Of a stretch of 64,000 nucleotides of DNA, positions 4,143-46,209 are shown piece by piece. Where the stretch lies: assembly GCF_000336695.1 (NCBI RefSeq), contig NZ_AOMC01000070.1:1023-65022 (forward strand). Direction: 5' to 3'. Within the stretch, counting starts at the first letter, position 1. Each line of letters begins with the position of its first letter. A model generated the notes under the pieces. It did not search any database. It worked only from the letters and a program-made list of their open reading frames with translations, and had not been told where the DNA came from. This DNA comes from Halococcus morrhuae DSM 1307. GTDB lineage: Archaea > Halobacteriota > Halobacteria > Halobacteriales > Halococcaceae. A program made the translations under genes and the position numbers.

Positions 4143-5279
4143 ATGGCGTTCCAGCTATCGGGAGAACACGAGGCCATCCGGACGGCCGTCCGCGAGTTCG
4201 CCGAGGAAGAGATCGTCCCTGTCGCGCGCGAGCACGACGAATCGGGCGAGTACCCTGAAGAACTCAGACAGGAGGCCGCCGAATACGATTTCGTCGCGCC
4301 GAACATCCCCGAGGAGTACGGTGGCGCGGGGATGGACGCGCTCGCGGGATCGATCGTGACCGAGGAGCTCTGGCGCGCCGACCCGGGCATCGGCAGCGCG
4401 GTCGGCTCGGCGGGTTTCGGCAGCGACATGCTCATCGAGTATGGCTCGGAGTGGATGAAGGAGGAGTGGCTGCCCGGGATCGCCGCCGGCGAAGCGGTCT
4501 CGGCGAGCGCTATCTCCGAACCCGCCCACGGCTCGAACGTCGCGGGCATCGAGACCCGTGCGGAGCAGGACGGCGACGAGTGGGTGATCGACGGGAACAA
4601 GACCTGGATCACCAACGGCTCGGTCGCGGACGTCGCCATCGTGATGACCAAGACCGATCCCGGCGCTGGTCATCAGGGGATCACGGCCTTTCTCGTACCG
4701 ACCGACAGTGAGGGATTCAGCGCCGAGAAGATCGACAACAAGCTCGGAATTCGTGCCTCCGACCTCGCCGAGTTGCGACTTGACGACGTCAGAGTTCCCG
4801 AGGAGAACGTTGTCGGCGAGGTGAACGAGGGGTTCTACCAGCTGATGGAGTTCTTCGCCTCCGGGCGAACGAGCGTCGCTGCCCAGGCCGTGGGGGCCGC
4901 ACAGGGTGCGCTCGATGCCGCCCGTGAGTACGCGACCGAGCGCGAGCAGTTCGACCAGCCGATCAGCGAGTTCCAGGCCATCCGGCACAAGCTCGCCGAG
5001 ATGGCGACGAACGTCGATGCCGCACGATCGCTCGCCTACCGGGCCGCGAGCGCGGTCGAGAGCGACGCCGACGACGCGGTACGGCTGGCGAGCATGGCGA
5101 AACTGTTCGCGAGCGAGCACGCCGTCGACGTGGCCGACGAGGCGATCCAGGTGTTCGGGGGTGCGGGCTACGTCACCGATCATCCCGCCGAGCGCTACTA
5201 CCGCGACGCACGCATCACGAAGATCTACGAGGGCACGAGCGAAATCCAGAAGAACATTATCGCCGATCGGCTGGTATGA
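4143..5279 (+). CDS. acyl-CoA dehydrogenase
   Basis: A 378-residue FAD-dependent acyl-CoA dehydrogenase of canonical length, predicted to catalyse the first step of beta-oxidation or of branched-chain acyl-CoA breakdown, passing electrons to ETF. The order is an N-terminal helical domain, a middle beta domain (AISEPAHGSN and KTWITNGSVAD) and a C-terminal helical domain (QFDQPISEFQAIRHKLAEM). The catalytic base is the Glu in KIYEGTSEIQ near the C-terminus, and the FAD-binding QVFGGAGY is present. It is one of three acyl-CoA dehydrogenases in the window. It is followed by a winged-helix gene that may regulate it. Chain-length preference cannot be read. Confidence 0.95.
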   Translation: MAFQLSGEHEAIRTAVREFAEEEIVPVAREHDESGEYPEELRQEAAEYDFVAPNIPEEYGGAGMDALAGSIVTEELWRADPGIGSAVGSAGFGSDMLIEYGSEWMKEEWLPGIAAGEAVSASAISEPAHGSNVAGIETRAEQDGDEWVIDGNKTWITNGSVADVAIVMTKTDPGAGHQGITAFLVPTDSEGFSAEKIDNKLGIRASDLAELRLDDVRVPEENVVGEVNEGFYQLMEFFASGRTSVAAQAVGAAQGALDAAREYATEREQFDQPISEFQAIRHKLAEMATNVDAARSLAYRAASAVESDADDAVRLASMAKLFASEHAVDVADEAIQVFGGAGYVTDHPAERYYRDARITKIYEGTSEIQKNIIADRLV

Positions 5280-5370: not shown

Positions 5371-5895
5371 ATGAGCGAGGCACCGGAATGGGAATTCACC
5401 GAGCGCGACGTGGTGATCCTGCGCGAGCTCGCGGGCGACCCGCAGATCTCCTCGCGCCAGCTCACCGAGATCCTCGACGAGAAGTACGACATCGACGTCT
5501 CGCACGTCACGGTGAGCGAGTCGATCCGGCGCATGCGCGAGGAGGGCGTCTTCCGTGAGGCGATCATCCCGAACGAGGACTTTTTCATCTTCGGACTGTT
5601 CGAGTTCAAGTTCAACGCCGAGCACTTCGCCGACGAGTGGCGCGCGGCGATGGAGTACATTCGCGACTCGCCGAACACGCTGTTCTACTTCCTCTCTGAT
5701 GGGGAGTATCAGTGGAAGACGGTGATGATGTTCCCGACGCGCGAGGCCGAATCGCGCTGGATCCACGAGTTCTACAAGGAACACGGCAGCGTGGTCTCGA
5801 ACATCCGCAACTCCGTCGTGACGAACGTGCTCAAGTTCGGGACCGACCCCGAACTGCTCGAAAGCCTGAACGAGGGGCCGCGAACGAGGGAATAG
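5371..5895 (+). CDS. winged helix-turn-helix transcriptional regulator
   Basis: A 174-residue DNA-binding protein. Residues about 8-65 form a winged helix (TERDVVILRELAGDPQISSR, then a recognition helix around HVTVSESIRRMREEG), similar to Lrp/AsnC-type or generic haloarchaeal wHTH proteins. The remainder, with FFIFGLFEFKFNAEHFADEW and FYFLSDGEYQWKTVMMF, looks like an alpha/beta sensor domain of Lrp-like size. The start at 5371 puts the protein directly after the gap that follows the acyl-CoA dehydrogenase, so it probably responds to an acyl or amino-acid derived ligand (inference). It is convergent with the stress protein downstream. Confidence 0.85.
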   Translation: MSEAPEWEFTERDVVILRELAGDPQISSRQLTEILDEKYDIDVSHVTVSESIRRMREEGVFREAIIPNEDFFIFGLFEFKFNAEHFADEWRAAMEYIRDSPNTLFYFLSDGEYQWKTVMMFPTREAESRWIHEFYKEHGSVVSNIRNSVVTNVLKFGTDPELLESLNEGPRTRE

Positions 5896-6367: not shown

Positions 6368-6808
6368 TCAGCGCACCAGCGAGAGCAGCTCACAGGAGAG
6401 CACGGTCTCGCCGTTCTGATCGAGCACCGACACGCTGTATCTGATCGTCCCGTTCGCCCGCGGGTGCTCGCGTTCCGCCTTTTCGAGCACCTCGGTCTCG
6501 ACGTGGATGGTATCGCCGATGTAGGTCGGGGCGGAAAACCGGAGCGCATCGACCCCGTAGAACGCGATGACGTCGTCGCGCTGTTCGGGTGTTCTGGACT
6601 GCCAGAGCAGTCCCGTCATCGCCGAGAAGACGAACGCGCCGTGGACGATCCGCTCGCCGTATTCCGTATTCGCCATCCGCTCCGCGTCGGTATGGTGATG
6701 GTTGAAATCACCGCTCACGCCCGCGAAGTTCGTCACGTCGGCTTCCGTCACCGTCCGCCGCGCAGTCGTGCTCGTCTCGCCCTCGTCGATCGATTCGAAG
6801 GTACTCAT
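6368..6808 (-). CDS. MaoC-like (R)-specific enoyl-CoA hydratase
   Basis: A 146-residue hot-dog fold MaoC dehydratase, predicted to hydrate trans-2-enoyl-CoA. The hydratase-2 motif is clear: FAGVSGDFNHHHTD supplies the catalytic Asp and His, and YGERIVHGAFVFSAMTGL is the conserved helix. It is the last gene of a minus-strand group kinase - HADH - thioesterase - MaoC; its ATG overlaps the thioesterase stop (ATGA, 6805-6808), so translation is probably coupled. In that context it would supply or consume the enoyl-CoA made by the kinase/dehydrogenase pair at 8545-11067. Confidence 0.92.
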   Translation of the reverse strand: MSTFESIDEGETSTTARRTVTEADVTNFAGVSGDFNHHHTDAERMANTEYGERIVHGAFVFSAMTGLLWQSRTPEQRDDVIAFYGVDALRFSAPTYIGDTIHVETEVLEKAEREHPRANGTIRYSVSVLDQNGETVLSCELLSLVR

Positions 6809-7257
6809 CGCCCCTCCCGGAAGAGTCGGTAGCTCGTGCGCCCGACCGCGACGTCCTTCTCCTCGCCGTTCGGCGCGATGCTCGACACGGTTGCATCCGT
6901 CACACCCATCGACCCGCCCGCGCGGACGACCTCTGCCTCGACGGTCAGATCGTCGGTCGCGGGGCGGAGATAGGAGACGTTCAGATCGGTCGTCGTGAGC
7001 GCCGCGCCTTGGGGGTTCTCGAACGTCGAGCGGAGCGCGAACCCGCTCGCGGTGTCGACGAGCGTGGCCGCCACGCCCCCGTGGACGTTCGCCTCGCCGC
7101 CGGGCACGAGGTTGGTGAACTTCTCGTCGTAGGGCACGCGGAGCACGACGCGGCCGTGCTCGATCGTCTCGATCTCGATGCCGAGCCAGGAGAAGAAGCC
7201 GTGCTCGCCGATGATGGCTTCGAGCTGGCTCCGCTCGGCCGGCGAGAGGTCGCTCAT
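6805..7257 (-). CDS. PaaI-type hot-dog acyl-CoA thioesterase
   Basis: A 150-residue hot-dog thioesterase of the PaaI/4HBT group. The segment PGGEANVHGGVAATLVDTAS contains the HGG motif, with the Asp of VDTAS as the likely catalytic acid; SYLRPATDDLTVEAEVVRAG is the usual second-half motif. It is predicted to hydrolyse acyl-CoA and release CoA. It overlaps its neighbours on both sides by ATGA-type junctions (7254-7257 with the HADH gene, 6805-6808 with MaoC), which marks a tight operon. The start at 7257 (MSDLSPAER) fits the family length. Confidence 0.92.
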   Translation of the reverse strand: MSDLSPAERSQLEAIIGEHGFFSWLGIEIETIEHGRVVLRVPYDEKFTNLVPGGEANVHGGVAATLVDTASGFALRSTFENPQGAALTTTDLNVSYLRPATDDLTVEAEVVRAGGSMGVTDATVSSIAPNGEEKDVAVGRTSYRLFREGR

Positions 7258-8492
7258 CGACCCCCAGAGACCGGCTCGCCGTTCTCGTACTCGTAGAACC
7301 CGCGCCCACTCTCCTGCCCCGTGTTCCCGCCCTCGACCAGCTCGACGAGGTAGTCGGCCGGCTCGAAGCGCTCCTCGCCGGTCGCCTCGTGGAGCGTTTC
7401 GAGCTTTTCCAGAAACGTGTCGAGTCCCTCCTGATCCGCACGCCGGCACGGCCCCTCCGAGAAGCCAGCGCCGAGTCGCATGCCGGTATCGATGGCCTCG
7501 GGAGTCGCGACGTCCATCCCGACGAGCTTCGCGGCCTCGTTGACCATCCGGGCCTCGACACGCAGGGTGTCGAACCCCTCGCCGTCGCCCGCTTCGTAGT
7601 CCGCGCCGTCGCCGTCGACGGCTTCGCCGTCTGCCTGAGACGTCTCCGACGTCTCTCCGTTCTCGTAGTCGTAGTAGCCCTTTCCCGTCTTGCGGCCCAG
7701 CTCCTCGGCCTCGACTTTCTCCTCGATCAGCGGCGGGTTGGTGATGCCGGCCTCCTCGCGGACCGAGTAGCCGATGTCGACCCCTGTCAGATCGGCGAGC
7801 TCGAACGGCCCCATCGGATAGCCACGGCGATGGACCATCGCGGCGTCGGCCTCCCGGATGGTGGCCTCGTCGTTGGAGACCATCCAGGCGGGTTCGACCA
7901 TGAACGGTCCCAGAACGCTGTTGACGACGAACCCCTGGACGTCCTTCTGCACGTAGATCGGCGTCTTGCCGAGCGATACGACGAAATCGTGGGCGGTCTC
8001 GGCGGTCGCGTCCGACGTCCGCTCGCCGTAGATCACCTCGACGAGATCCATCTTGACGGGCGGGTTGAAGTAGTGGGTGCCGACCACCTGCGCCGCCCTG
8101 TCGGTGGCGCTCGCGATCTCGGTGATCGACAGCGAGGAAGTGTTCGAGGCGAGGATCGCCTCGTCGGGCGCTAGCTCGTCGAGTTCGGTGTAGATCTCCT
8201 TTTTCAGCGCCATCCGTTCGGGGGCGGCCTCGACGACCAGATCGGCGTCGCCAACCGCTTCGGCGAGATCGGTCGTCGTGTCGATGCGCGCGAGCACGTC
8301 GTCGGGATCGTCGACGATCCCGTTCTCGGCGAGTTTTCCGACGCTCCACTCGATGTTCTCGGAGCCCGACTCGATCAGATCCGTCTCGATGTCGCGCATC
8401 GTCACGTCGTAGCCGCCGAGCGCGACGACCTCGGTGATGCCGTGGCCCATGTTGCCCGCGCCGAGCACCGCCACCCGTTCGATGTCCGTCAT
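7254..8492 (-). CDS. 3-hydroxyacyl-CoA dehydrogenase with duplicated C-terminal domain
   Basis: A 412-residue NAD-dependent enzyme converting (S)-3-hydroxyacyl-CoA to 3-oxoacyl-CoA. The Rossmann motif is VLGAGNMGHGIT, the catalytic His is in GTHYFNPPVKMDLVEVI, and GFVVNSVLGPFM begins the first helical C-domain ending KTGKGYYDYENGE. A glycine/acidic linker (TSETSQADGEAVDGDGADYE) then leads to a second C-domain copy ending ESGRGFYEYENGE. One-domain HADs are about 290 residues, so the C-domain is duplicated, as in FadB-like and some archaeal enzymes. The start is at 8492 (MTDIERVAV). It lies 52 bases after the kinase gene and overlaps the thioesterase gene by four bases. Confidence 0.95.
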   Translation of the reverse strand: MTDIERVAVLGAGNMGHGITEVVALGGYDVTMRDIETDLIESGSENIEWSVGKLAENGIVDDPDDVLARIDTTTDLAEAVGDADLVVEAAPERMALKKEIYTELDELAPDEAILASNTSSLSITEIASATDRAAQVVGTHYFNPPVKMDLVEVIYGERTSDATAETAHDFVVSLGKTPIYVQKDVQGFVVNSVLGPFMVEPAWMVSNDEATIREADAAMVHRRGYPMGPFELADLTGVDIGYSVREEAGITNPPLIEEKVEAEELGRKTGKGYYDYENGETSETSQADGEAVDGDGADYEAGDGEGFDTLRVEARMVNEAAKLVGMDVATPEAIDTGMRLGAGFSEGPCRRADQEGLDTFLEKLETLHEATGEERFEPADYLVELVEGGNTGQESGRGFYEYENGEPVSGGR

Positions 8493-8544
8493 GGTCTTTC
8501 GAGCGATCGGCAGCGGTTTAACTCTCCCGTCGCCGGCGAACCGC

Positions 8545-9612
8545 TCATAGTGGCTCCTCACCCTCGATGATGCGCACCGCGCGATCGGCGAGTTCGGGCA
8601 CGCCCGTCTCCATCTTCGGATAGAGCGGGTCGTCGGCGTTGCCCTCCAGGTAGCGCCGGAAGAACATCTCGCCAAGCCCGGCGAGCTTGTAGACCGCGAG
8701 CGCACGATAGAACCGATCGTTCTCGTACTCGATCCCCGTCCGCTGCTCGTAGCGCTCGACGAGCTCCTGCCGACTGGGATAGCCTTCGCGGGTCATGAAC
8801 GTCGCGGTGAGCGAGTCGGTCGCCGCCGGGGGTTCGGGATCGCCCTCGTCCCACCAGTACGACAGCAGCCAGCCGAGATCGACGAGCGGGTTGCCGAGCG
8901 TGCTCAGCTCCCAGTCGAACACCGCGACGATCTCGGGTGGCGTTCCCGGCCCGAACATCACGTTGTCGAGCTTGTAGTCGCCCTGGACGAGCGTGTGCGT
9001 CGGCGCGTCGGGGACGTTCTCGGTCAGCCACTCCATCACGTCGTAGAGCGCGGGTACCTCGCGCTCCTCGCTCGTGACGTCGAACGCCCAGGTCAGCTGC
9101 TCGGACCAGCGGCTCACCTGCCGCTCGGTGAACCCCTCGGGATGGCCGAACTCGCCGAGGCCCGCCTCCTCGTAGTCGACCGCGTGGACCTCGGCGAGTC
9201 CGTCGACGAGCTCCTCGCCGATCCGTCGTCGGTGATCGGGCGTGGCGAAACGTTCGGGCTCACCCTCGCGCAGCACGTCGCCCGCGATGCGCTCCATCAC
9301 GTAGAAATCACAGCCCAAGACCGAGTGGTCCTCGCAGGCCAACACGGTGGGCGGCACTCTGACCGGCGTGTCCTGGAGCGCGTCCATCACGCGATACTCC
9401 CGCAGCACGTCGTGGGCGGTGTCGGCGACCTCGCCGGGTGGCGGTCGGCGAACCACGAGGTCGCGATCGCCCCACTCGACGAACAGCGTCTCGTTCGAGT
9501 GGCCCTCCTGATGGTGCTGAACGTCGAACGCCTCGACCGCTCCGAGTTCGCGCTCGAAGTAGTCGGCGAGCGACTCCCGATCGACGATGCGCGCGAAATA
9601 CTCGTCGCTCAT
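8545..9612 (-). CDS. APH-family phosphotransferase (ACAD10/11 kinase-like)
   Basis: A 355-residue protein-kinase-fold phosphotransferase of the aminoglycoside phosphotransferase family. The catalytic loop is QGDYKLDNVMF with D212 and N217; the metal-binding DWE starts at D233. NPLVDLGWLLSYWWDEGDP and the preceding features match the N-terminal domain of ACAD10/ACAD11 and bacterial LvaA, which phosphorylate the 4-hydroxyl of 4-hydroxyacyl-CoA. It is first gene of the minus-strand operon with HADH, thioesterase and MaoC, and divergent from an acyl-CoA dehydrogenase resembling the ACAD11 C-terminal half. Function as a 4-hydroxyacyl-CoA kinase is inferred from family and context; antibiotic resistance is unlikely. 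The start at 9612 (MSDEYF) fits the family. Confidence 0.85.
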   Translation of the reverse strand: MSDEYFARIVDRESLADYFERELGAVEAFDVQHHQEGHSNETLFVEWGDRDLVVRRPPPGEVADTAHDVLREYRVMDALQDTPVRVPPTVLACEDHSVLGCDFYVMERIAGDVLREGEPERFATPDHRRRIGEELVDGLAEVHAVDYEEAGLGEFGHPEGFTERQVSRWSEQLTWAFDVTSEEREVPALYDVMEWLTENVPDAPTHTLVQGDYKLDNVMFGPGTPPEIVAVFDWELSTLGNPLVDLGWLLSYWWDEGDPEPPAATDSLTATFMTREGYPSRQELVERYEQRTGIEYENDRFYRALAVYKLAGLGEMFFRRYLEGNADDPLYPKMETGVPELADRAVRIIEGEEPL

Positions 9613-9645
9613 CGGACCCCTCGATTCGACGGCGACTGCGATCTC

Positions 9646-9660
9646 GTTACCATTGGTAGA
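9646..9660. promoter_or_regulatory. candidate operator, GTTACC-N3-GGTA type
   Basis: GTTACCATTGGTAGA lies between the divergent kinase (start 9612) and dehydrogenase (start 9856) genes. Its left arm and core match the perfect palindrome GTTACCGGTGGTAAC at 17118, upstream of an SDR gene. Two such sites in front of acyl-CoA-type genes suggest one local regulator (inference). Confidence 0.35.
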
Positions 9661-9825
9661 TCGATTGTGCGCCCGGCTACGAATATCTACTGGACACATC
9701 TACGTCAACCGACACTTCTGTCGGCATTCCCCGTCGTCTGCGGCCTCATGTGGCCGATGACTTTGATCGGCGAAACCAGTCACATTCACCGACTGTGTGT
9801 GGAATCGTCAGTAATCGCCCTACCG

Positions 9826-9832
9826 TTTTACA
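9826..9832 (+). promoter_or_regulatory. TATA-like box for dehydrogenase at 9856
   Basis: TTTTACA lies 24-30 bases before the ATG at 9856, the leaderless spacing seen elsewhere in the window. Confidence 0.45.
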
Positions 9833-9855
9833 ATGTAGTGCCGAGAAGAGGGTGC

Positions 9856-11067
9856 ATGGACTACGACGACTCGGCGACCGCACAGGAACTGCGCGATCGC
9901 GCCCGTGAATTCATGGATGAAGTCGTGCTACCGAAGGAGCGCGCCAACGCCGCTGGCAGCGTCTCCCAGGAGACGATCGACGAACTACGAGAACAGGCCC
10001 GCGAGTACGACGTGTATGCACCCCAAATCTCCGAAGAGCATGGTGGAATGGGGATCGCGCTCCGGGACGTACTACCGCTGTTCGAGGAGGCGGGCCGAAG
10101 CCTACTCGGTGCGCCAGCGATGCGCGTCGACGCGCCCGACGAGGGGAACATGCACACGCTCGAACTCGTCGGCACCGCGGCGCAGAAAGAGGAGTGGCTC
10201 GATCCGCTGGTGGCGGGCGAGATTCGTTCTGGTTTCGCGATGACCGAACCAGCTCCCGGCGGCGGATCGGACCCGAAGATGCTCCGCACGACGGCCGAAA
10301 AGGAAGACGGTGAATGGGTCATCGACGGCCACAAATGGTGGACCACCCAGGGCAGTGCGGCCGACGTACTGCTGGTGATGGCTCGCACCGACGAGGAAGC
10401 CCACCCCTACGCCGGCTGCTCGATCATCCTCGTGCCGACCGACGCTGAGGGCGTCGAGATCGTTCGCGACATCCCCCATCTCGGTCAGGATCTCATGCCC
10501 GAGAGCCACGCCGAGATCCGCTTCGACGGGGTGTGCGTGCCCGAAGAAAACCTCCTCGGCGAGGAGAACGAGGGGTTCACGGTCGCTCAGCAGCGCCTCG
10601 GACCCGCGCGACTGACCCACTGCATGCGCTTTTCCGGGATGGCCGATCGCGCGCTCGACGTGGCGAAGGCCTACATGAACGAGCGCGAGGCGTTCGGCTC
10701 GTCGCTCGCGGACAAACAGGCCCAGCGGTTCGCGATCGCGGAGGCCGAAACCCGCCTGCACGCCGCGCGGACGATGGTGAGGGACGCCGCGACGAAGCTC
10801 GACGCCGGCGACGAGGCCAGAGTCGAGGTCTCGATGAGCAAGGTCTTCGCCGCCAACGTCGCCCAGGAGACGATCGATCTCGCGATCCAGTGCTGTGGTG
10901 GGGCCGGCATCAGCAGGGACCTGCCGCTCGCGGACTTCTACGACGCTGTGCGCGCCTTCCGCATCGTCGACGGGGCCGACGAGGTCCACAAGCGAACGAT
11001 CGCGCGTGCGGTCTTCGAGGACACCGACTCGGCCGAGATCGAGGCGGTGCCGCGTTTCGACGGCTGA
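9856..11067 (+). CDS. acyl-CoA dehydrogenase, ACAD11-like (Asp active site)
   Basis: A 403-residue acyl-CoA dehydrogenase fold protein. It has the middle-domain AMTEPAPGGGSDPKML and HKWWTTQGSAADVL and the C-terminal IQCCGGAGISRDLPLADFY. The usual active-site YEGT is replaced by IVDGADEVHKR, placing D372 where most family members have Glu; this is the pattern of ACAD10/ACAD11 and LvaC-like enzymes, which eliminate phosphate from 4-phosphoacyl-CoA. The start at 9856 follows a TATA-like box at the right distance; a much longer open frame upstream runs antisense through the kinase gene and is not real. It is divergent from the matching kinase gene. Confidence 0.9.
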   Translation: MDYDDSATAQELRDRAREFMDEVVLPKERANAAGSVSQETIDELREQAREYDVYAPQISEEHGGMGIALRDVLPLFEEAGRSLLGAPAMRVDAPDEGNMHTLELVGTAAQKEEWLDPLVAGEIRSGFAMTEPAPGGGSDPKMLRTTAEKEDGEWVIDGHKWWTTQGSAADVLLVMARTDEEAHPYAGCSIILVPTDAEGVEIVRDIPHLGQDLMPESHAEIRFDGVCVPEENLLGEENEGFTVAQQRLGPARLTHCMRFSGMADRALDVAKAYMNEREAFGSSLADKQAQRFAIAEAETRLHAARTMVRDAATKLDAGDEARVEVSMSKVFAANVAQETIDLAIQCCGGAGISRDLPLADFYDAVRAFRIVDGADEVHKRTIARAVFEDTDSAEIEAVPRFDG

Positions 11068-13927: not shown

Positions 13928-13964
13928 CGCGAAGGGTTATGATCCGGCCGCTGGAGCATTGGGT

Positions 13965-15137
13965 ATGCGACTCGATGGCGTCCGCGTGCTCGATCTGACG
14001 CGTCACTTGCCAGGCCCGTACGCCACCCAACTGCTCGCCGACGCCGGGGCGGAGGTCGTCAAGATCGAGGACACCGCCACCGGTGATCCGACCCGCTGGA
14101 TGAGTTTCGAGAGCGAGGGGAGCGACGGAACGCTGTTCGAGGCGGTCAATCGGGGCAAGCGAAGCGTCGCGCTCGACCTCAAAACCGACGCGGGGCGCGA
14201 GGCGTTCTTCGAGCTCGCGAGCGATGCCGACGCGCTGATCGAGGGGTTCCGGCCGGGCGTCACCGAACGCCTCGGCGTCGACGACGACTCGGTTCGCGAG
14301 CACAACCCCGAGATCGTCTACTGCTCGCTGTCGGGCTACGGACAGACCGGGCCGTACCGCACCCGTGCGGGCCACGATTTGAACTACGCCGCCTTTTCGG
14401 GCCTGCTCGACATGACCCGTGCCGACGAGAGCGCGACACCACAGGTGCCGGGCGTTCCGGTCGGCGATATGGCCGGCGGGCTCTTCGCCGCGTTCTCGAT
14501 CGTCGGCGCGCTCTGTTCGCGCGCGCTCGGCAACACCGACGGAGAGTACCTCGACATCGCCATGACTGACGTGTTGCTCTCCTTTTCGCAAGCGCTCGCG
14601 CCCGACGCGCTCGCGGGCGAGACGCCACGTCCCGGGAAGACGGCTCTCACGGGCGAGTTGCCGTGGTACGGGATCTACGAGACTGCCGACGGAAAGTTCG
14701 TCTCGATCGCGGCGCTCGAACCGCCGTTCTGGAACGCGTTCTGCGAGACCGTCGGCCGGGAGGACCTCGTCGAGACACACATGACGGACGACGCGGCGAC
14801 GCGTGCGGCGCTGCGCGAGGAACTGACAGAGCTGTTCGCCGCGAAGACCCGCGACGAGTGGGCCGAAACGTTCGCGGACAGCGACGCAACCGTCGAGCCG
14901 GTTCGCACCCTGCCGGAGGCGCTCGACCATCCACAGACCGACTCGCGAGGGATCGTCGAGCGGACGCAGTGGCCACAGCGGATCGGCTTTCCGGCGCGGT
15001 CGTCCGATCACGCTGACCCGGCAGCGGGCGTTCCGGGACACGGTGCACAGACCGGGGCGGTCCTCCGCGAGGCGGGCTACACCGATCGCGATATCGCGGA
15101 GCTGCGCGAGTCAGGGGCCGCGATTTTCGGCGAGTGA
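13965..15137 (+). CDS. CaiB/BaiF family (class III) CoA transferase
   Basis: A 390-residue class III CoA transferase that moves CoA between carboxylic acids or onto a substrate such as a racemising 2-methylacyl-CoA. The N-terminal GVRVLDLTRHLPGPYATQLL and GAEVVKIED are family signatures; the catalytic Asp is D168 in VPVGDMAGG. CSLSGYGQTGPYR is the usual CoA-binding loop. The start at 13965 (MRLDGVRV) is preferred over a TTG two codons earlier. The stop touches the stop of the convergent FMN oxidase gene. It could activate acids for the acyl-CoA pathway of this region; alternatively it is an alpha-methylacyl-CoA racemase-type enzyme. Confidence 0.92.
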   Translation: MRLDGVRVLDLTRHLPGPYATQLLADAGAEVVKIEDTATGDPTRWMSFESEGSDGTLFEAVNRGKRSVALDLKTDAGREAFFELASDADALIEGFRPGVTERLGVDDDSVREHNPEIVYCSLSGYGQTGPYRTRAGHDLNYAAFSGLLDMTRADESATPQVPGVPVGDMAGGLFAAFSIVGALCSRALGNTDGEYLDIAMTDVLLSFSQALAPDALAGETPRPGKTALTGELPWYGIYETADGKFVSIAALEPPFWNAFCETVGREDLVETHMTDDAATRAALREELTELFAAKTRDEWAETFADSDATVEPVRTLPEALDHPQTDSRGIVERTQWPQRIGFPARSSDHADPAAGVPGHGAQTGAVLREAGYTDRDIAELRESGAAIFGE

Positions 15138-16340
15138 TCAGGGACCGTCCACGCCCGATGGCCGGCGATCGAGCAGCATCGTCCTATCGAGGTCGTCGAA
15201 ACTCGTGTGGCCCGTGAGCGCGAGCGTCAGATCGAGATCGGCACGGAAGTTCTCGAGGACGGTTCCGACGCCGGCCTCGCCGTCGAGTGCCAGTCCGTAG
15301 GCGTAGGGTCGCCCGAGCAGGACGGCGTCGGCTCCGAGCGCGATCGCCTTCACGGCGTCCGCACCGCTGCGGATCCCACTATCGAACAGGACGGGTACGT
15401 CACCGACGGCATCGACCACGCCCGGAAGGGCGGTGAGTGCGCCGATCGCGCCATCGACCTGCCGGCCGCCGTGGTTCGAGACGATCACGCCATCGGCACC
15501 GCATTCGACGGCCCGTTCGGCATCGTCCGGGTGGAGCACGCCCTTGACGAGCAGGGGGAGGTCGGTCTCCGTACGGAGGCTCGCCAGATCGTCCCAAGTG
15601 AGTGAGGGGTCGCCGAAGATATCGATGAACTCCATGAGCGCCGTGCCCTCGTTCTCCTCGGGCGGGACGTCGAGGCGCTCGCGGAAGGCCGGGTCGGAGA
15701 AATAGTTCGCCACGCCCTCGCCGTCGAGGAAGGGGAGATAGCCCTGCTCGATGTCGCGCTCGCGCCAGCCGAGCAGGGGTGTGTCGAGCGTGACGACGAT
15801 CGCATCGTAGCCGGCGTTCTCGGCGCGCTCGACGAAGCTGCTCGCGATGTCGGGGTCGGCCGACCAGTAGAGCTGGAACCACTTCGGGGTCTCCCCCAGC
15901 TCCTCGGCGACGTCCTCCATCGTGTACGACGACGCCGAACTGAGCACCATCGGGACGTCGTGATCGGCCGCGGCCCGCGCGACCGCGAGTTCGCCCGCCT
16001 CGTGGATGATCGAGAGCGTGCCGAGCGGGGCGAGCAGGACCGGGAGATCGAGTTCGGTCCCGAAGAGATCGACCTGGAGGTCCCGTTCGGCGACGTCACG
16101 GAGCATTCGCGGGACGATCCGCCAGTCGGCGAACGCGTGGCGGTTCTCGGTGATCGTGTCCTCGGTGCCGGCCCCGCCGGCGACGTAGGCCGCCGCCTCG
16201 TTGCTCATCGCGGCCATCGCTCGCCGTTCGAGCTCCTCGTACCGAACCGGATGCTCGGGCGGGTCGTCGGCGAGCATCCCCGACGCGTAGACGTTGCACT
16301 GGCGGTGTTCGCCGTAGGGTTCCGAGGGGTCGTCACTCAT
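15138..16340 (-). CDS. FMN-dependent alpha-hydroxy acid oxidizing protein (lactate monooxygenase-like)
   Basis: A 400-residue FMN enzyme of the L-lactate dehydrogenase/glycolate oxidase family, oxidising an L-2-hydroxy acid to the 2-oxo acid. The C-terminal signature VIVSNHGGRQVDG supplies the catalytic His and substrate Arg; VPVLFDSGIRSGADAVKAIA and GADAVLLGRPYAYGL bind the FMN phosphate. The N-terminus (VRYEELERRAMAAMSNEAAA) and length are closest to lactate 2-monooxygenase-type proteins. The start at 16340 (MSDDPSEP) is preferred over 16376. It overlaps the upstream HAD gene region only if the longer start were used. Confidence 0.92.
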   Translation of the reverse strand: MSDDPSEPYGEHRQCNVYASGMLADDPPEHPVRYEELERRAMAAMSNEAAAYVAGGAGTEDTITENRHAFADWRIVPRMLRDVAERDLQVDLFGTELDLPVLLAPLGTLSIIHEAGELAVARAAADHDVPMVLSSASSYTMEDVAEELGETPKWFQLYWSADPDIASSFVERAENAGYDAIVVTLDTPLLGWRERDIEQGYLPFLDGEGVANYFSDPAFRERLDVPPEENEGTALMEFIDIFGDPSLTWDDLASLRTETDLPLLVKGVLHPDDAERAVECGADGVIVSNHGGRQVDGAIGALTALPGVVDAVGDVPVLFDSGIRSGADAVKAIALGADAVLLGRPYAYGLALDGEAGVGTVLENFRADLDLTLALTGHTSFDDLDRTMLLDRRPSGVDGP

Positions 16341-16372
16341 GCGAACGCCTGGCACGGCCGACACAAGTAGTT

Positions 16373-17068
16373 TCACCCGTCGTCGATACCGACCAGATCG
16401 ACGATTTCGAGCGGATCATCGACGCGATACGTGACGGCCGGATCGTCGGGGGTGGCCTCGCTCGCACTGCCCCCGAACGCGACGGTGTCGATACCCGCCC
16501 GCGCCGCGCCCTGCATGTCGTTCTCGTAGCGATCGCCAACCATCAGCGCCGCGGCGGGTTCGACGCCCGCCTTTTCGAGCGCGGTCTCGAACATCGCCGG
16601 GTCGGGTTTCGTCCGGTCGACCTCCTCGGAGGTCGTCACCGCGTCGAGCCGGTCGGCGACGCCGAACTGCGAGAGCAGCGCCTCGCCCTCCCAGGTGTCG
16701 ATGTCGCTCACGATGCCCTGGTGGACGTGGGTTTCGAGCCGGCGGATCGCCGCAACGGTTCCCGCAACCGGTTCGAGGTTCTCGCGGGTCGCACGCCTGA
16801 AGGCCGGCAGCCACTCCTCTTCGGGCAGTTCGTGGCCGACCATCGCCGTGACCGCGTGCTCGTAACCGACCCGCGCGCTGCGGAATTCGGTGCCCTCGCG
16901 CGTGCTGAAGTGCGATCCCAGTTCGTCGCGCCACGTGGCGAGCGCTTCCTCCCTATCGAGCTCGTGCTCGTCAGCGAGCGTCCCGACGAACGCCCGATGG
17001 CCCGCACGGACCGAGCCGAGATCGAGGATCACGCCGCCGATGTCCCAGAAGACCGCCTCGTAGTTCAT
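16373..17068 (-). CDS. HAD family hydrolase
   Basis: A 231-residue HAD-superfamily subfamily IA protein. Motif I is FWDIGGVILD with the nucleophile D9; the second Asp of the usual DxD is Gly, a variant common in the epoxide-hydrolase-like and related branches. Motif II Ser/Thr is in QGIVSDIDTW, the motif III Lys is in DRTKPDPAMF, and motif IV is MVGDRYENDMQGA. It is probably a phosphatase or dehalogenase of unknown substrate. It is divergent from the SDR gene, with a palindrome between them. Confidence 0.9.
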   Translation of the reverse strand: MNYEAVFWDIGGVILDLGSVRAGHRAFVGTLADEHELDREEALATWRDELGSHFSTREGTEFRSARVGYEHAVTAMVGHELPEEEWLPAFRRATRENLEPVAGTVAAIRRLETHVHQGIVSDIDTWEGEALLSQFGVADRLDAVTTSEEVDRTKPDPAMFETALEKAGVEPAAALMVGDRYENDMQGAARAGIDTVAFGGSASEATPDDPAVTYRVDDPLEIVDLVGIDDG

Positions 17069-17229: not shown

Positions 17230-18000
17230 ATGACGACCGAGCAGTTCAGCGTCGACGGCGACACGGCGCTCGTGACGGGCGCGTCGAGCGGTATCGGGCG
17301 CGCGATCGCCGAGCGCTTCGCGGCCGATGGGGCTGATGTCGTGATCTGCTCGCGCGAGCAGGAGAACGTCGATCCCGTGGCCGAGGGGATCGAAGAATCC
17401 GGGGGATCGGCGCTCGCCGTCGAGTGTGACGTGCGCGACCGCGAGTCCGTCGAGGCGCTCGTCGAGGCCACCGTCGCGGAGTTCGACGGACTCGACACAC
17501 TCGTCAACAACGCGGGCGCGAGCTTCATGGCGAACTTCGAGGGGATCTCCGAGAACGGCTGGAAGACGATCGTCGACATCAACCTCCACGGGACCTACCA
17601 CTGCACACAGGCCGCTGGCGAGGTGATGCGCGAGGGCGACGGAGGGACGATCATCAACTTCGCGAGCGTCGCCGGCCAGGAGGGTGCACCCTTCATGAGC
17701 CACTACGCCGCCGCCAAGGCGGGCGTCGCGAACCTCACCTCGACGCTCGCCTACGAGTGGGCCGACGACGGGGTGCGGGTCAACTGCATCGCGCCGGGGT
17801 TCGTCGCCACCCCGGGCGTGGCGAGCCAGATGGGCGTCACCGCCGACGAGATCGATCGGGAAGAGGTAGATCGCAAGATCGGCACGAGTGAGGAGATCGC
17901 CGACGTCGCTCAGTTCCTCGCGAGCCCCGCCGCGTCGTATCTCACCGGCGAGACGATCACCGCACGGGGCGTGCCGGACATCATGGAATCGCCAGAATGA
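17230..18000 (+). CDS. short-chain dehydrogenase/reductase (SDR)
   Basis: A 256-residue classical SDR, NAD(P)-dependent. The cofactor motif is TGASSGIGRAIAERF, NNAGA is present, and the catalytic residues are Ser in NFASVAGQ and Tyr/Lys in SHYAAAKAG. The C-terminal IAPGFVATPGVASQM and LTGETITARG are typical of the FabG/glucose dehydrogenase group. A GGAGG ribosome-binding sequence precedes the ATG. Its stop overlaps the start of the F420-type oxidoreductase (ATGA at 17997-18000), so the two are cotranscribed. The alcohol substrate is unknown. Confidence 0.93.
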   Translation: MTTEQFSVDGDTALVTGASSGIGRAIAERFAADGADVVICSREQENVDPVAEGIEESGGSALAVECDVRDRESVEALVEATVAEFDGLDTLVNNAGASFMANFEGISENGWKTIVDINLHGTYHCTQAAGEVMREGDGGTIINFASVAGQEGAPFMSHYAAAKAGVANLTSTLAYEWADDGVRVNCIAPGFVATPGVASQMGVTADEIDREEVDRKIGTSEEIADVAQFLASPAASYLTGETITARGVPDIMESPE

Positions 18001-19004
18001 GCGACGCCGCCGATCGCGACGTGTTCCTCCCGGTGGGTGCACAGCCGAGCATCGACGCGCTCTGCGAGCAGGCCGAACGCGCCGAGGAACTCGGCTACGA
18101 TCGGGTCTGGCTGCCCGAGACGTGGGGTCGCGACGCAGTGACGGTGCTTACCTCGATCGCCCACCGGACCGACGAGATCGGCATCGGCACGTCGATCGTC
18201 CCCATCTACTCGCGCTCGCCCGCGCTGCTCGGCCAGACCGCCGCCACGCTCCAGGAGGTCTCGGACGGGCGCTTTCGGCTGGGTCTCGGCCCGTCGGGAC
18301 CGATCGTCGTCGAGAACTGGCACGGCGTCGACTACGGAAATCCGCTCCGCCGGACGCGCGAGACCGTCGAGATCGTCAAGGAGGTGCTCACGGGCGAAGA
18401 GGTCGACTACGACGGCGACTACTTCGATCTCTCGGGCTTCCGGCTGCGCTGCGAGCCACCGGAGCCCGCGCCGGCGGTCGACGCGGCCGGGATGGGTCCG
18501 AAGAGCGTGGAGCTCGCCGGGCGCTTCGCCGACGGCTGGCACGCGCTCATGCTCACCCGCGAGGGGATTCGCGAGCGTCTCGACGACCTCCAGCGTGGGG
18601 CGGCGCTCGCGGACCGCGACCCCGACGACGTGCGCGTGACGCTCTCGCTGACCTGTGCGGCGCTCGACGACGGCGAGCGCGCCCGCGAGTCCGTCCGCCA
18701 GCATCTCGCCTTCTACGTCGGTGGGATGGGAACGTTCTACCGGGACAGCCTCGCACGGATCGGCCACGAGGACACCGCCGAGACGATCTACGAACACTGG
18801 CAGACCGGCGATCGCGAGGCGGCGATGGCGGCCGTCGACGACGAGCTCCTGGACGCGATCGCGGTCGCCGGCACGCCCGAAGAAGCTCGCGAACGTTTCG
18901 GACGGTTCGCCGCCATCGATGGCGTCGATCGCGTCTCGGTGTCGTTCCCGCGCGACGCGACGCTCGACGAGATCGAGGCGACGACCGCAGCACTCGCTCC
19001 CTGA
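17997..19004 (+). CDS. LLM-class oxidoreductase, probable F420-dependent
   Basis: A 335-residue luciferase-like (LLM) TIM-barrel protein. The N-terminal PSIDALCEQAERAEELGYDR, VWLPETWGRDAV and IGIGTSIVPIYSRSPALLGQ are typical of the F420-dependent methylene-H4MPT reductase/alkanal group, and the protein resembles a haloarchaeal F420 subfamily. Haloarchaea make F420, so F420 is the likely cofactor rather than FMN (family knowledge; not shown by sequence alone). It is translationally coupled to the SDR gene through a four-base overlap, suggesting the pair acts on the same metabolite. Confidence 0.9.
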   Translation: MSDAADRDVFLPVGAQPSIDALCEQAERAEELGYDRVWLPETWGRDAVTVLTSIAHRTDEIGIGTSIVPIYSRSPALLGQTAATLQEVSDGRFRLGLGPSGPIVVENWHGVDYGNPLRRTRETVEIVKEVLTGEEVDYDGDYFDLSGFRLRCEPPEPAPAVDAAGMGPKSVELAGRFADGWHALMLTREGIRERLDDLQRGAALADRDPDDVRVTLSLTCAALDDGERARESVRQHLAFYVGGMGTFYRDSLARIGHEDTAETIYEHWQTGDREAAMAAVDDELLDAIAVAGTPEEARERFGRFAAIDGVDRVSVSFPRDATLDEIEATTAALAP

Positions 19005-35176: not shown

Positions 35177-36607
35177 ATGAATATCGCCGACCGGTTGCTC
35201 AACGCCGAGCGCGAACACAGCACCTTCGTCTACGTCATCGCCGCCATCGCCGCTCTCAACGGGCTGTTGTTCGGCTTCGATATCGGCGTCATCTCCGGTG
35301 CACTGCTCTACATCGACCAGACGTTCACGCTGTCGCCGTTTTTGGAAGGGGTCGTCACCAGCAGCGTGCTCGTGGGAGCGATGATCGGCGCGGCGACCGG
35401 CGGGAAACTGGCCGATCGATTCGGCCGTCGTCGGCTGACGCTCGCGGGTGCGGCCGTCTTCTTCGTCGGCTCGTTCGGGATGGCGCTGTCGCCGACGATC
35501 GAGTGGCTCGTCTTCTGGCGGGTCGTCGAGGGTACCGCCGTCGGCGTCGCGTCGATCGTCGGCCCGCTGCTGATCTCGGAGACCGCTCCCTCCGACATCC
35601 GCGGCGCGCTCGGCTTCCTCCAGCAGCTGATGATCACGATCGGCATCCTCCTGGCGTACGTCGTCAACTACGCCTTCGCCCCCGAGTTCCTCGGCATCAC
35701 CGGCTGGCGCTGGATGCTGTGGTTCGGCGCGGTGCCCGCCACGGTGCTGGCGATCGGGACCTATTTCCTGCCCGAGAGCCCGCGCTGGCTCATCGAGCAC
35801 GACCGGATCGAGGAGGCAAAGAGCGTGCTCTCGCGCATTCGCGACACGGACGACGTCGACGATGAGATCGATAACGTCCGCGAGGTCAGCGAGATTGAGG
35901 AGAAGGGTGGCCTCTCGGATCTGCTCGAACCGTGGGTTCGCCCGGCGCTCGTCATCGGCGTCGGCCTCGCGGTCATCCAGCAGGTCAGCGGCATCAACAC
36001 CGTCATCTACTACGCACCGACGATCCTCAACAACATCGGGTTCAACGAGATCGCCTCGATCGTCGGGACGGTCGGCGTCGGCGTCGTCAACGTGCTGCTG
36101 ACGGTCGTCGCCATCCTTCTCGTCGATCGTGTGGGCCGGCGGCCGCTGTTGCTCGTCGGTACCGCCGGGATGACTGTGATGCTCGGGATACTGGGCCTCG
36201 GCTTCGTCCTGCCAGGGCTGTCGGGCGTCGTCGGCTACGTGACGCTCGCGAGCATGATCGGCTACGTCGCCTTCTACGCGATCAGCCTCGGCCCGGTGTT
36301 CTGGCTGCTCATCTCGGAGATCTATCCGCTTCGCATCCGCGGGACCGCCGAGGGCGTCGCCAGCGTGTTCAACTGGGGTGCGAACTTCCTCGTCGCGCTG
36401 ACCTTCCTCCCGCTGATCAACAGGCTCGGCGAGGGGCTCTCGTTCTGGCTGCTCGGCGGGTTCTGCCTCCTCGCGTTCGTGTTCATCTACGCGCGCGTTC
36501 CCGAGACGATGGGACGCTCGCTCGAAGAGATCGAGGCCGACCTCCGCGAGAGCGCCATCGTTGGCTCTGACAGCGAGGAACGCCCGGAATCCGTGACGAA
36601 CGACTGA
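35177..36607 (+). CDS. MFS sugar porter family transporter
   Basis: A 476-residue 12-helix major facilitator of the sugar porter family. Signatures are NGLLFGFDIGVISGALLYID in helix 1, the loop DRFGRRRLTLAG, the mid-protein PESPRWLIEHDR, the helix-7 QQVSGINTVIYYAPTI and the closing PETMGRSLEEIEADL. The family takes up sugars or polyols by H+ or Na+ symport; the exact sugar cannot be read. Two starts are possible: ATG 35177 (chosen, MNIADRLLNA) or GTG 35111, which would add a charged 22-residue extension. Confidence 0.93.
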   Translation: MNIADRLLNAEREHSTFVYVIAAIAALNGLLFGFDIGVISGALLYIDQTFTLSPFLEGVVTSSVLVGAMIGAATGGKLADRFGRRRLTLAGAAVFFVGSFGMALSPTIEWLVFWRVVEGTAVGVASIVGPLLISETAPSDIRGALGFLQQLMITIGILLAYVVNYAFAPEFLGITGWRWMLWFGAVPATVLAIGTYFLPESPRWLIEHDRIEEAKSVLSRIRDTDDVDDEIDNVREVSEIEEKGGLSDLLEPWVRPALVIGVGLAVIQQVSGINTVIYYAPTILNNIGFNEIASIVGTVGVGVVNVLLTVVAILLVDRVGRRPLLLVGTAGMTVMLGILGLGFVLPGLSGVVGYVTLASMIGYVAFYAISLGPVFWLLISEIYPLRIRGTAEGVASVFNWGANFLVALTFLPLINRLGEGLSFWLLGGFCLLAFVFIYARVPETMGRSLEEIEADLRESAIVGSDSEERPESVTND

Positions 36608-36710
36608 GATCGCTTCGGTCACAACCGTTCGTAAGAGCGGCCCACATCGCCCGACGTGACGGGTCGACGACTGCCCATACAACTATGTGATTGACAGTTC
36701 TAGTGTGGGC

Positions 36711-37562
36711 ATGGCTATTGCACGGCACGGCGACGGGATCGGTGGTGAGTTCGCCGCGCTTGCCTCGCAGGTCCACCCGGTGTTCATGCTGCCACCGCTC
36801 GCCGCGTCCTGGTTCGGCGCGGTGCTCGCTCCGTCGCTTCTGCCGCAGGTGGCGTTCGTCCACATGCTGGCGATGTTCTTCGCAGTCTACACCGCCCACG
36901 TCAAGGATGGCTACGTCGATTTCTACCTCCGTAGCGAGGACGACGACCACCCGCTGACGTTGGCGGGCTGTCGCCTCGGACTCGCACTCTCGACGACGGG
37001 CTTCGCGCTCTGTACCGGCTGGCTCTGGCTCGCCGTCGGGCCGGGTGCAGCGATTGTGACCCTGCCGACGTGGTTCATCGCCTACCTCCACGCACCTCAG
37101 CTCGACACCAACCCGATCGGCGCGACGCTCGGCTATCCGCTCGGCATCGCCCTCGCGATCGTCGGCGGCTACTACGCACAGACCACGACGATCTCGGCCC
37201 CGCTGCTCGCCTTCGCGGCGGTCTTCCTCGTGCTCCTCTCGGGGATCAAGGTCATCGACGACGCGAAGGACTACGACTACGATCGTTCGATCAGCAAGCG
37301 CACCGTCGCGGTGGCGCTCGGTCGCGAGCGGGCCCGCCGGAGCGCCCACGCTCTCATCGGGCTCGCACTCGTGGGCGTGCTCGCCGGTGCGTTCCTCGAA
37401 CTGTTCCCGCCGAGTACCGCCCTCGCCGCTGCCGCCTTCGGCGTCGTCGCGCTCGCTACCCGTCGGTTCGAACCTCAGCGCGCGACCGAACTACTCATGC
37501 GTGGCTCGTATCTGTTCCTGGCGCTGCTCTTTCTCGCCGTACTCGTCCGTCCGCTGTCGTGA
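36711..37562 (+). CDS. UbiA-family prenyltransferase
   Basis: A 283-residue membrane protein with about eight hydrophobic helices. The two Asp-rich motifs of the UbiA family are seen in diverged form: AHVKDGYVDFYLRSEDD and VIDDAKDYDYDRSISKRTVA. Family members attach isoprenoids to aromatic or lipid acceptors (menaquinone, heme, archaeal lipid or carotenoid steps). HVKDG replaces the usual first-motif NDxxD, so the acceptor is likely atypical. The start at 36711 is chosen at MAIARHG; a nearer upstream start (36687) adds eight residues. No quinone or carotenoid genes are adjacent. Confidence 0.82.
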   Translation: MAIARHGDGIGGEFAALASQVHPVFMLPPLAASWFGAVLAPSLLPQVAFVHMLAMFFAVYTAHVKDGYVDFYLRSEDDDHPLTLAGCRLGLALSTTGFALCTGWLWLAVGPGAAIVTLPTWFIAYLHAPQLDTNPIGATLGYPLGIALAIVGGYYAQTTTISAPLLAFAAVFLVLLSGIKVIDDAKDYDYDRSISKRTVAVALGRERARRSAHALIGLALVGVLAGAFLELFPPSTALAAAAFGVVALATRRFEPQRATELLMRGSYLFLALLFLAVLVRPLS

Positions 37563-37655
37563 GTCGGTCGCCGGCATCTCCCGTTCCGGGGGGAGTGTGC
37601 CCGCTGAGAAACAGTTGGTTCGGCTGTCGCTCCTCGATGGAGCCCCGAAACTCCA

Positions 37656-38834
37656 TCAGTTGGCGGTACTCACGATCTTCACCACGTCACCCTCTTCGAG
37701 TTCGTGATCGTCGCCGATCCGCCGATCCGAGCGCGCGTCCACGGCGTGGAGATAGCCGTCACCGATGTCCGAGTGGACGGCGTAGGCGAGATCGAGCGGC
37801 GTCGAGCCGCTCGGCAACAGGAACGCGTCCGGTAGGACGTTGCCCTGGCCGTCGGTCCACTTCGTCTCGTTCTGGACGGGATACACAGTAATATTGTCGA
37901 GCAGGTCGTAGACGGCCGTATCGAGTGCTCGCTGAACGCCGGTGCCGCCGTGGGTCGCCATGAGGTCGCGCAACTCGTCGAGCTGCGTGCGCTGGGCGTC
38001 CGTGAGCTCGCCAGCGACCGAGAAGTCGGGGTCGCCGGGATCGTAGTCGATGGCCCCACCCTCGACGCCACGGCGGAGCGCGAGTTCGCCCTCGGCGCTC
38101 GCCGGGATCGTCTCGGCGAGCTCCTGAAGCCGTTCGACGTTGCCTGTGGGCGCGATATCGGCTTTGTTCGCCACGACGACGAGCGGTTTCGTGCGCGCAC
38201 GGATGTCGCGGGCCAGTTCGCGCCGATGGTCGTCGGTCCACTCGCGCGGATCGGCGGGGTAGTCGAGTTCGCGCAGCGTCGCAGCGATCGCCGCCTCGCT
38301 CGCGCCGACGCCGGTGAGCATCTCCGCGAGCGATTCGTCGATATCGAACCCCGGGGATCGGGACTGGCGCTCGACGGATTCCCAGTTGCGCGCGATGATG
38401 CCCGCAAGCCAGCGCTCGATCTCCTCGGTGACGAAGTCGACGTCCTCGGCGGGATCGTGGGCACCGATCTCGACTGGTTCACCCTCGGCGTTCGTCCCGC
38501 CGGAGGCGTCGACGACGTTGAGGATGACGTCGGCGCTCGTGAGTTCGTCGAGGAACTGGTTGCCCAGTCCTCGTCCTTCGTGTGCGCCCGGCACCAGCCC
38601 GGCGACATCGAGCAGCTCGATCGGGACATAGCGTGTGCCGTCGTGGCAGTCGTCGTCGCCACAGCGCTCGTCACGTGCGAGACATGGACAGTCGGTACGG
38701 ACGTGCGAGACCCCGTGATTCGGGTCGATCGTCGTGAACGGATAGCCCGCGACGTCGACGTCGGCCATCGTCGCCGCGGCGAAGAACGTCGACTTGCCGG
38801 CGTTCGGCTTGCCAGCAAGCGCGAGCGAGAGCAT
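37656..38834 (-). CDS. Obg/YchF-type TRAFAC GTPase with TGS domain
   Basis: A 392-residue translation-factor-class P-loop protein. G1 is AGKPNAGKST, G3 is DVAGLVPGAHEGRGLGNQFL, and G4 is NKAD, which gives GTP specificity; bacterial YchF has the ATP-selective NxxE instead. The central acidic insert FDIDESLAEMLTGVGASEAA is typical of the archaeal family, and the C-terminal TGS domain (TVYPVQNETKW to GDVVKIVSTAN) binds RNA. It probably associates with ribosomes. The start at 38834 (MLSLALAGKP) is chosen at the conserved beta-1. A bactofilin-like gene starts upstream on the same strand, its stop 8 bases before this start. Confidence 0.93.
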   Translation of the reverse strand: MLSLALAGKPNAGKSTFFAAATMADVDVAGYPFTTIDPNHGVSHVRTDCPCLARDERCGDDDCHDGTRYVPIELLDVAGLVPGAHEGRGLGNQFLDELTSADVILNVVDASGGTNAEGEPVEIGAHDPAEDVDFVTEEIERWLAGIIARNWESVERQSRSPGFDIDESLAEMLTGVGASEAAIAATLRELDYPADPREWTDDHRRELARDIRARTKPLVVVANKADIAPTGNVERLQELAETIPASAEGELALRRGVEGGAIDYDPGDPDFSVAGELTDAQRTQLDELRDLMATHGGTGVQRALDTAVYDLLDNITVYPVQNETKWTDGQGNVLPDAFLLPSGSTPLDLAYAVHSDIGDGYLHAVDARSDRRIGDDHELEEGDVVKIVSTAN

Positions 38835-38841
38835 GGCTCGA

Positions 38842-39801: not shown

Positions 39802-39821
39802 ACCGTCGATCCGGGGCCATC

Positions 39822-39832
39822 GCTAATAAATC
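39822..39832 (-). promoter_or_regulatory. TATA-like box for the bactofilin/GTPase operon
   Basis: GATTTATTAGC on the minus strand lies 21-31 bases before the GTG at 39801 and supports that start. Confidence 0.5.
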
Positions 39833-39858
39833 CCGCCTCCCGTCACGAACGCGAGCGG

Positions 39859-46208: not shown

Positions 46209-46209
46209 C

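Follow-up and report, generated by a model that had tools for sequence, protein, structure and literature searches.

The window analyzed here is a stretch of 64,000 nucleotides from Halococcus morrhuae DSM 1307 (contig NZ_AOMC01000070.1), in which two divergently oriented genes encode an APH-fold kinase and an acyl-CoA dehydrogenase (ACAD) with an atypical active site. These two genes form a candidate system for removing the hydroxyl group of 4-hydroxyacyl-CoA compounds:

8545..9612, minus strand: candidate 4-hydroxyacyl-CoA 4-O-kinase, APH3-type (355 amino acids; from PF01636, PDB matches, residues, and structural model)
9856..11067, plus strand: candidate 4-phosphoacyl-CoA phospho-eliminating ACAD, ACAD10/11-type (403 amino acids; from residue mapping, PDB matches, and fold matches)

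In the ACAD, the sequence VDGADEVH stands in place of the YEGT motif and D372 occupies the position of the catalytic base, as an earlier sequence-only reading had noted and as residue mapping bears out. For ACAD11, the residues reported as special are D220, N225, R86, and R176 of the kinase domain and R626, H634, and R637 of the ACAD domain. The latter three surround the phosphate, an essential role falls to the HCMR motif, and D753 serves as the catalytic base (PMC12440821). The comparison with ACAD11 that the sequence-only reading proposed places the catalytic and phosphate-site residues onto both window proteins. Specifically, R626, R631, H634, R637, and D753 of mouse ACAD11 map to R247, R252, H255, R258, and D372 of the window ACAD. 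R252 is the arginine common to all ACADs, and R247 with H255, C256, M257, and R258 make up the HCMR phosphate site that is specific to ACAD10/11. This phosphate site (R247/H255/R258), which the sequence-only reading had overlooked, is the strongest sign that we found.

Residues R247, R252, H255-C-M-R258, and D372 are invariant in 30 of 30 haloarchaeal orthologues, and neither the HCMR phosphate set nor an aspartate base is present in any of the 13 other ACADs aligned from the same genome. Given this absence among paralogues and invariance among orthologues, the motif set is far beyond chance. An ordinary ACAD in the window (4143-5279) and the Thermus thermophilus enzyme 1ws9 keep only R252 of the mapped set and have glutamate as the base. 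Among the 64 non-outgroup rows of a 66-ACAD tree, which covers nine NCBI phyla plus mouse, the R, R, H, M, R, and D residues are kept without exception, and the cysteine of HCMR is replaced by valine or alanine in a few. In the PDB, 4hr3 and ACAD11 come nearest to the window ACAD (E 2e-71 to 2e-61) and outrank all ordinary ACADs, and a fold search with the AlphaFold model (pLDDT 90) returns 4hr3, 2wbi (human ACAD11), and 8v3u (ACAD11 D220A) at the top. The protein departs from an ordinary ACAD, which has the YEGT glutamate and a hydrophobic acyl pocket, in its D372 and its charged HCMR site.

The kinase contains the motif QGDYKLDN with D212, N217, and D233 (read from the translation), and the APH fold claimed for it from these letters is borne out by a match to the Pfam family PF01636 (E 1.7e-44). 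Mapping assigns roles to D212 (base), N217, and D233 (Mg ligand), and D220, N225, R86, and R176 of the mouse ACAD11 kinase domain correspond to D212, N217, R71, and R164. All five window residues are invariant in 30 of 30 haloarchaeal orthologues, and R71 and R164 are nearly invariant in a wider kinase alignment. R71/E72 and R164 are the counterparts of the arginines proposed to contact CoA in ACAD11, with E72 as the alphaC glutamate partner. The first of these ACAD11 arginines is Arg84 by count on the 8v3u chain and R86 in the published numbering (PMC12440821), and it adjoins the alphaC glutamate either way.

The PDB chains nearest to the kinase (E 6e-64 to 5e-49) include 9o56 (6e-64), 3dxp (3e-52), and ACAD11 (4e-50), whereas 25-hydroxysteroid kinase reaches only 4e-12 in the same sequence search. 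Profile comparison gives 3e-110 for 9o56, 2e-93 for ACAD11, and 1.2e-32 for 25-hydroxysteroid kinase, which argues against the latter (9fsg, 9ft5) being the closest relation. In a fold search with the AlphaFold model (pLDDT 91), 3dxp is the top match, followed by 25-hydroxysteroid kinase and Rv3168. A role in aminoglycoside resistance was considered and rejected, in that the sole NCBIfam match, to APH(3′), scores 29.8 bits where the cut-off is 205.

The distribution of the two proteins was surveyed in 294 genomes drawn evenly across the haloarchaeal class. An ACAD threshold of E ≤ 1e-110, fixed beforehand, selects 146 genomes. The kinase is matched in 166 genomes at 1e-20, and its scores show a gap between 8e-78 and 2e-52 with 146 genomes on the strong side; the kinase cut was set inside this gap after the data were inspected. 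Both genes are present in 146 of the 294 genomes and only one of the two in none (Fisher p 7e-88, computed without correction for relatedness, which inflates the strength of the p-value). In a hand-compiled set of 10 genera wherein presence varies between species, kinase and ACAD agree in all 10. The coordinates of both genes are available for 128 genomes, in which 66 pairs are at most 500 bp apart (64 in divergent orientation), 17 lie within 6 kb, and 45 are unlinked. Because the genes are unlinked in these 45 genomes, their co-occurrence is not mere linkage. These observations show a coupling of kinase and ACAD that is genomic rather than biochemical. In a search for the pair that extended to other classes of the phylum (295 genomes, E ≤ 1e-90), matches were confined to the haloarchaeal class, at a cut-off that is too strict to exclude distant copies. 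Some haloarchaea (genomes G201, G198, and G145) carry up to eight kinase and four ACAD copies of this type, which suggests substrate diversification.

The kinase is the first gene of a minus-strand operon that continues with the first three genes listed below, as the sequence-only reading had it and as coordinates and Pfam and TIGR matches confirm. The other two genes lie at lower coordinates of the window:

7254..8492, minus strand: 3-hydroxyacyl-CoA dehydrogenase (3HCDH), with 3HCDH_N and two 3HCDH domains, directly after the kinase (PF02737 4.8e-62, PF00725 2.8e-45)
6805..7257, minus strand: PaaI-like hotdog thioesterase, with a 4-base overlap with each neighbor (TIGR00369 1.5e-22, PF03061)
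6368..6808, minus strand: MaoC-family enoyl-CoA hydratase (PF01575 2.5e-24)
4143..5279, plus strand: ordinary ACAD with the YEGTSE catalytic glutamate and without HCMR (from motifs)
5371..5895, plus strand: winged helix-turn-helix (HTH) regulator candidate (74% identity to an annotated winged-HTH gene of the Haloferax (Hfx.) mediterranei cluster, locus L079)

A gap of 52 bases separates the kinase from the 3HCDH gene, and the two junctions that follow are 4-base overlaps. The ordinary ACAD is 78% identical to, and an orthologue of, the ACAD of the same Hfx. mediterranei cluster; the regulator candidate has no Pfam match at 1e-5. Neither a CoA ligase nor a thiolase turned up in the window, in agreement with the sequence-only reading. 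The assembly (2.99 Mb, 167 contigs) as a whole contains 17 matches to the AMP-forming ligase family PF00501, fragments among them, as well as three strong matches to thiolase. Where a ligase or thiolase match falls on the same contig, it lies beyond the window. The genome has no second kinase-ACAD system: the other PF01636 match is one short kinase-like open reading frame (contig C63), which adjoins an ACAD without the HCMR motif.

Other loci of this contig merit mention. At 17230-19004 of the window, a FabG-like short-chain dehydrogenase/reductase (SDR) gene overlaps an F420-dependent LLM oxidoreductase gene (TIGR04024 family), and in other genera both an SDR and a TIGR04024 LLM oxidoreductase are again found close to the kinase or the ACAD. 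At 13959-16376, a class III CoA-transferase gene (CaiB type) is convergent with a gene resembling FMN-dependent 2-hydroxy-acid dehydrogenase or lactate oxidase. Outside the window, at C70:82092-85013, an AMP-forming CoA ligase lies in two pieces with a transposase-like open reading frame (465 amino acids, minus strand) between them, which may reflect either disruption by an insertion sequence or a mixed assembly.

In other haloarchaea, the recurrent neighbors of the pair are 3HCDH (often ECH-fused), MaoC, PaaI, SDR, a second ordinary ACAD, and a winged-HTH gene. A congener (locus L086) has two AMP-forming ligases between 3HCDH and the kinase, and plasmid pHME132 of Hfx. mediterranei carries the pair (WP_004060557 and WP_004060558) with a 3HCDH-ECH fusion, a ligase, a Zn-alcohol dehydrogenase, and an aldehyde dehydrogenase. 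Kinase-ACAD adjacency is also seen in many bacterial phyla. On pTT27 of Thermus thermophilus HB8, the genes in order encode SDR, MaoC, PaaI, AMP-ligase, SDR, ACAD, kinase, DUF6285, and histidine phosphatase; the Deinococcus cassette comprises SDR, MaoC, PaaI, ACAD, kinase, and histidine phosphatase. The 3HCDH, PaaI, and MaoC neighbors, and in relatives the CoA ligase, fit a scheme wherein an enoyl-CoA would be fed into beta-oxidation. Separately, the pHME132 cluster (record 36000-52000) runs on into genes for SCP2, Zn-alcohol dehydrogenase, aldehyde dehydrogenase, MFS, and alkyl-sulfatase-domain proteins, as if it served the degradation of alkyl sulfates or long-chain alcohols.

The region between the kinase and ACAD genes contains candidate regulatory sites:

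9613..9855, no strand: divergent promoter region common to the kinase operon and the ACAD gene (243 bp between the divergent genes)
9648..9658, no strand: operator-like palindrome TACCATTGGTA, TACCA-T-TGGTA (36-46 bp upstream of the kinase start)
9824..9835, plus strand: conserved TATA-box-like CGTTTTACAATG (21-32 bp upstream of the ACAD ATG; kept in eight congeners)

Divergent spacing ranges from 85 to 314 bp among the 66 closely linked haloarchaeal pairs, 64 of which are divergent. Three intergenic blocks, TTACCATTGGTAG, TACGAATA, and CGTTTTACAATG, are conserved in 8 of 8 congeneric sequences aligned; the 13-bp block TTACCATTGGTAG contains the palindrome and is kept in all eight, and TACGAATA varies slightly among them. 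The exact match to TACCANTGGTA is the only one in the 2.99 Mb assembly. The weight of the palindrome rests on conservation, because chance alone would give about one match, as a reversed control shows. We infer that the conserved blocks represent an operator and TATA boxes, and the position of CGTTTTACAATG fits a leaderless ACAD transcript. In a different family, an SDR gene that adjoins the pair is preceded by a similar exact site (L098, 8135-8146).

In phylogenetic trees, the haloarchaeal ACADs form one clade (SH-aLRT 100) whose sister is a sequence from a Chloroflexota metagenome-assembled genome (99), within the bacterial radiation, and the kinases of haloarchaea are also grouped in one clade (100), with bacterial homologues around it. 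Because each protein forms one haloarchaeal clade among bacterial ones, the trees fit a single acquisition from bacteria, with the genes later lost from many species. The haloarchaeal ACAD shares its subclade with sequences from Thermus, Chloroflexota, and Actinomycetota; LvaC was not among the tree rows. Because this subclade is separate from that of ACAD11, the haloarchaeal ACAD is, by the tree, a relative of ACAD11 with the same active site rather than a strict orthologue. Of the proposal that the pair is a split ACAD10/11 or LvaA/LvaC system, the reaction class is supported by residues, fold, co-occurrence, and neighbors, and strict orthology to ACAD11 is not.

The active-site residues, the PDB and fold matches, the co-occurrence in 146 of 294 genomes, and the neighboring genes make the predicted reaction class, a 4-hydroxyacyl-CoA kinase with a phospho-eliminating ACAD, well supported. 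By analogy with characterized relatives that have the same residues, from which we infer the reaction and likewise the roles of the neighbors, it is very likely that the pair carries out, as two separate archaeal proteins, the ACAD10/ACAD11 (LvaA plus LvaC) reaction on 4-hydroxyacyl-CoA. Because both proteins match the halves of ACAD10/ACAD11, active site for active site, approximately half of haloarchaea can probably remove the 4-hydroxyl group of 4-hydroxy acids by phosphorylation followed by elimination. A CoA ligase encoded elsewhere would activate the 4-hydroxy acid to its CoA ester, and the kinase would convert 4-hydroxyacyl-CoA and ATP to 4-phosphoacyl-CoA, with D212 as the base and ATP/Mg held on N217 and D233. 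D372 and FAD of the ACAD would then expel the phosphate, held by R247, H255, and R258, to yield a trans-2-enoyl-CoA with no net oxidation. A MaoC or crotonase hydratase, the 3-hydroxyacyl-CoA dehydrogenase, and a thiolase would complete ordinary beta-oxidation. The pathway can be complete because ligases and thiolases are encoded elsewhere in this genome.

Several points weigh against this assignment. No CoA ligase adjoins the pair in the genome of the window. Besides mouse ACAD11, its subclade contains sequences from Deinococcus and Pseudomonas and that of 4hr3; the haloarchaeal ACAD lies outside it, and we know of no characterized member in the subclade to which the haloarchaeal ACAD belongs. 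To our knowledge, no assay exists for any member of the haloarchaeal clade. Nor has a counterpart of LvaB, the kinase partner that P. putida needs, been identified; in Thermus a small gene for DUF6285 follows the kinase, and a search with DUF6285 as the query, which does not equate it with LvaB, matches 0 of 98 haloarchaea. Moreover, the kinase superfamily also phosphorylates steroid alcohols.

As for substrates, levulinate is only one option; its use would need an SDR acting like LvaD, and although SDRs are frequent neighbors of the pair, their promiscuity precludes an assignment. A plausible substrate is 4-hydroxybutyrate: the polyhydroxyalkanoate that Hfx. mediterranei produces from gamma-butyrolactone contains this monomer (PMC6631277), implying that 4-hydroxybutyryl-CoA is formed. 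A bolder proposal, which we regard as doubtful, is that the pair is the haloarchaeal oxygen-tolerant route from 4-hydroxybutyryl- and 4-hydroxyvaleryl-CoA to crotonyl- and pentenoyl-CoA, replacing the oxygen-sensitive radical 4-hydroxybutyryl-CoA dehydratase and thereby setting the share of 4-hydroxy monomers in storage polyesters.

The chemistry proposed above is compatible with a role in detoxifying or clearing hydroxy acids, such as those from the oxidized lipids of other organisms, rather than in growth on levulinate or 4-hydroxy acids. We consider this a tentative possibility: a PaaI-type thioesterase sits in the kinase operon, and the mammalian authors propose the clearance of 4-hydroxy acids arising from lipid peroxidation (PMC12440821), whereas the beta-oxidation neighbors, and in relatives the CoA ligase and the alcohol and aldehyde dehydrogenases, suggest catabolism. 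It is improbable that the hydroxyl which the pair activates and removes is one other than that at C4 (for example a 3-, 5-, or side-chain hydroxyl of a branched, isoprenoid, or steroid-derived acid), by analogy with bacterial 25-hydroxysteroid kinase. This reading stays under consideration because that enzyme comes second in the kinase fold search, and the diversity of the wider family, the separation of the haloarchaeal ACAD clade from that of ACAD11, and the SCP2 sterol-binding-domain gene of the Hfx. mediterranei cluster agree with it; against it stand the far stronger kinase profile match to ACAD11, the alphaC Arg-Glu of ACAD11, which is not conserved in 25-hydroxysteroid kinase (profile alignment), and the ACAD phosphate-binding triad, which has the same spacing as in ACAD11. 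Finally, an ordinary ACAD beside an unrelated small-molecule kinase, paired by accident or by shared inheritance of a catabolic island, is very improbable and was rejected: the APH family includes many resistance or metabolite kinases, and the ACAD matches general models such as acryloyl-CoA reductase (all below curated cut-offs), but aspartate replaces the catalytic glutamate, the HCMR triad is present, and the genes co-occur in 146 of 146 genomes, unlinked ones included, and are likewise adjacent in many bacterial phyla.

The sequence-only reading was aware of no demonstration of this function in archaea, and in the literature searched we too found no archaeal case of an ACAD10/11-type route; the mammalian papers (PMC12440821, PMC11342911) do not mention archaea. 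What is new here, on strong genomic evidence, is the apparent extension of a known reaction to a third domain of life. If the assignment is true, approximately half of haloarchaeal species carry a dedicated entry of 4-hydroxy acids into beta-oxidation even though their membranes are built of isoprenoids, not fatty acids. It would also fix a function for hundreds of genes labeled “phosphotransferase” and “acyl-CoA dehydrogenase” and provide natural two-protein versions for mechanistic study of an unusual redox-neutral flavin elimination. The reaction itself was reportedly assigned only between 2017 and 2025, in proteobacteria and mammals, with the lva work by Rand in 2017. A bearing on polyester engineering would follow as well, since Hfx. 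mediterranei has the pair on pHME132 and already makes the 4-hydroxybutyrate-containing polymer (PMC6631277).

Among known systems, 25-hydroxysteroid kinase (9fsg, 9ft5; PMC8449060) belongs to the same kinase superfamily and phosphorylates an alcohol before elimination, but it is approximately 22% identical to the window kinase, acts on a steroid alcohol, and lies outside the ACAD10/11 branch. The levulinate system of Pseudomonas (PMC6692424) resembles the haloarchaeal one in that kinase (LvaA) and ACAD (LvaC) are separate genes, with an SDR and a CoA ligase near the pair in some haloarchaea. Its lva homologues are reported from Alpha-, Beta-, and Gammaproteobacteria, and LvaB, which P. putida needs, is described as a 12-kDa protein that interacts with LvaA; the P. 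citronellolis cluster also lacks lvaB. Haloarchaea, by comparison, have no identified LvaB-like gene and no single lva operon. The clusters of T. thermophilus HB8 (pTT27) and Deinococcus likewise unite ACAD, kinase, MaoC, and PaaI thioesterase, and the Thermus ACAD falls in the tree group next to the haloarchaeal ACADs; they differ in having histidine phosphatase (both), DUF6285 (Thermus), and an SDR where the window operon has 3HCDH. Relative to mammalian ACAD10/ACAD11 (PMC12440821, PMC11342911), the haloarchaeal pair consists of two separate divergent genes rather than one fused protein, has no HAD domain, resides in an archaeal host, and includes an ACAD of a subclade different from that of ACAD11. 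It shares with them the combination of an APH3 kinase and an Asp-type ACAD, the arginine beside the alphaC glutamate and the equivalent of R176 in the kinase, and identical residues at every tested catalytic and phosphate-site position.

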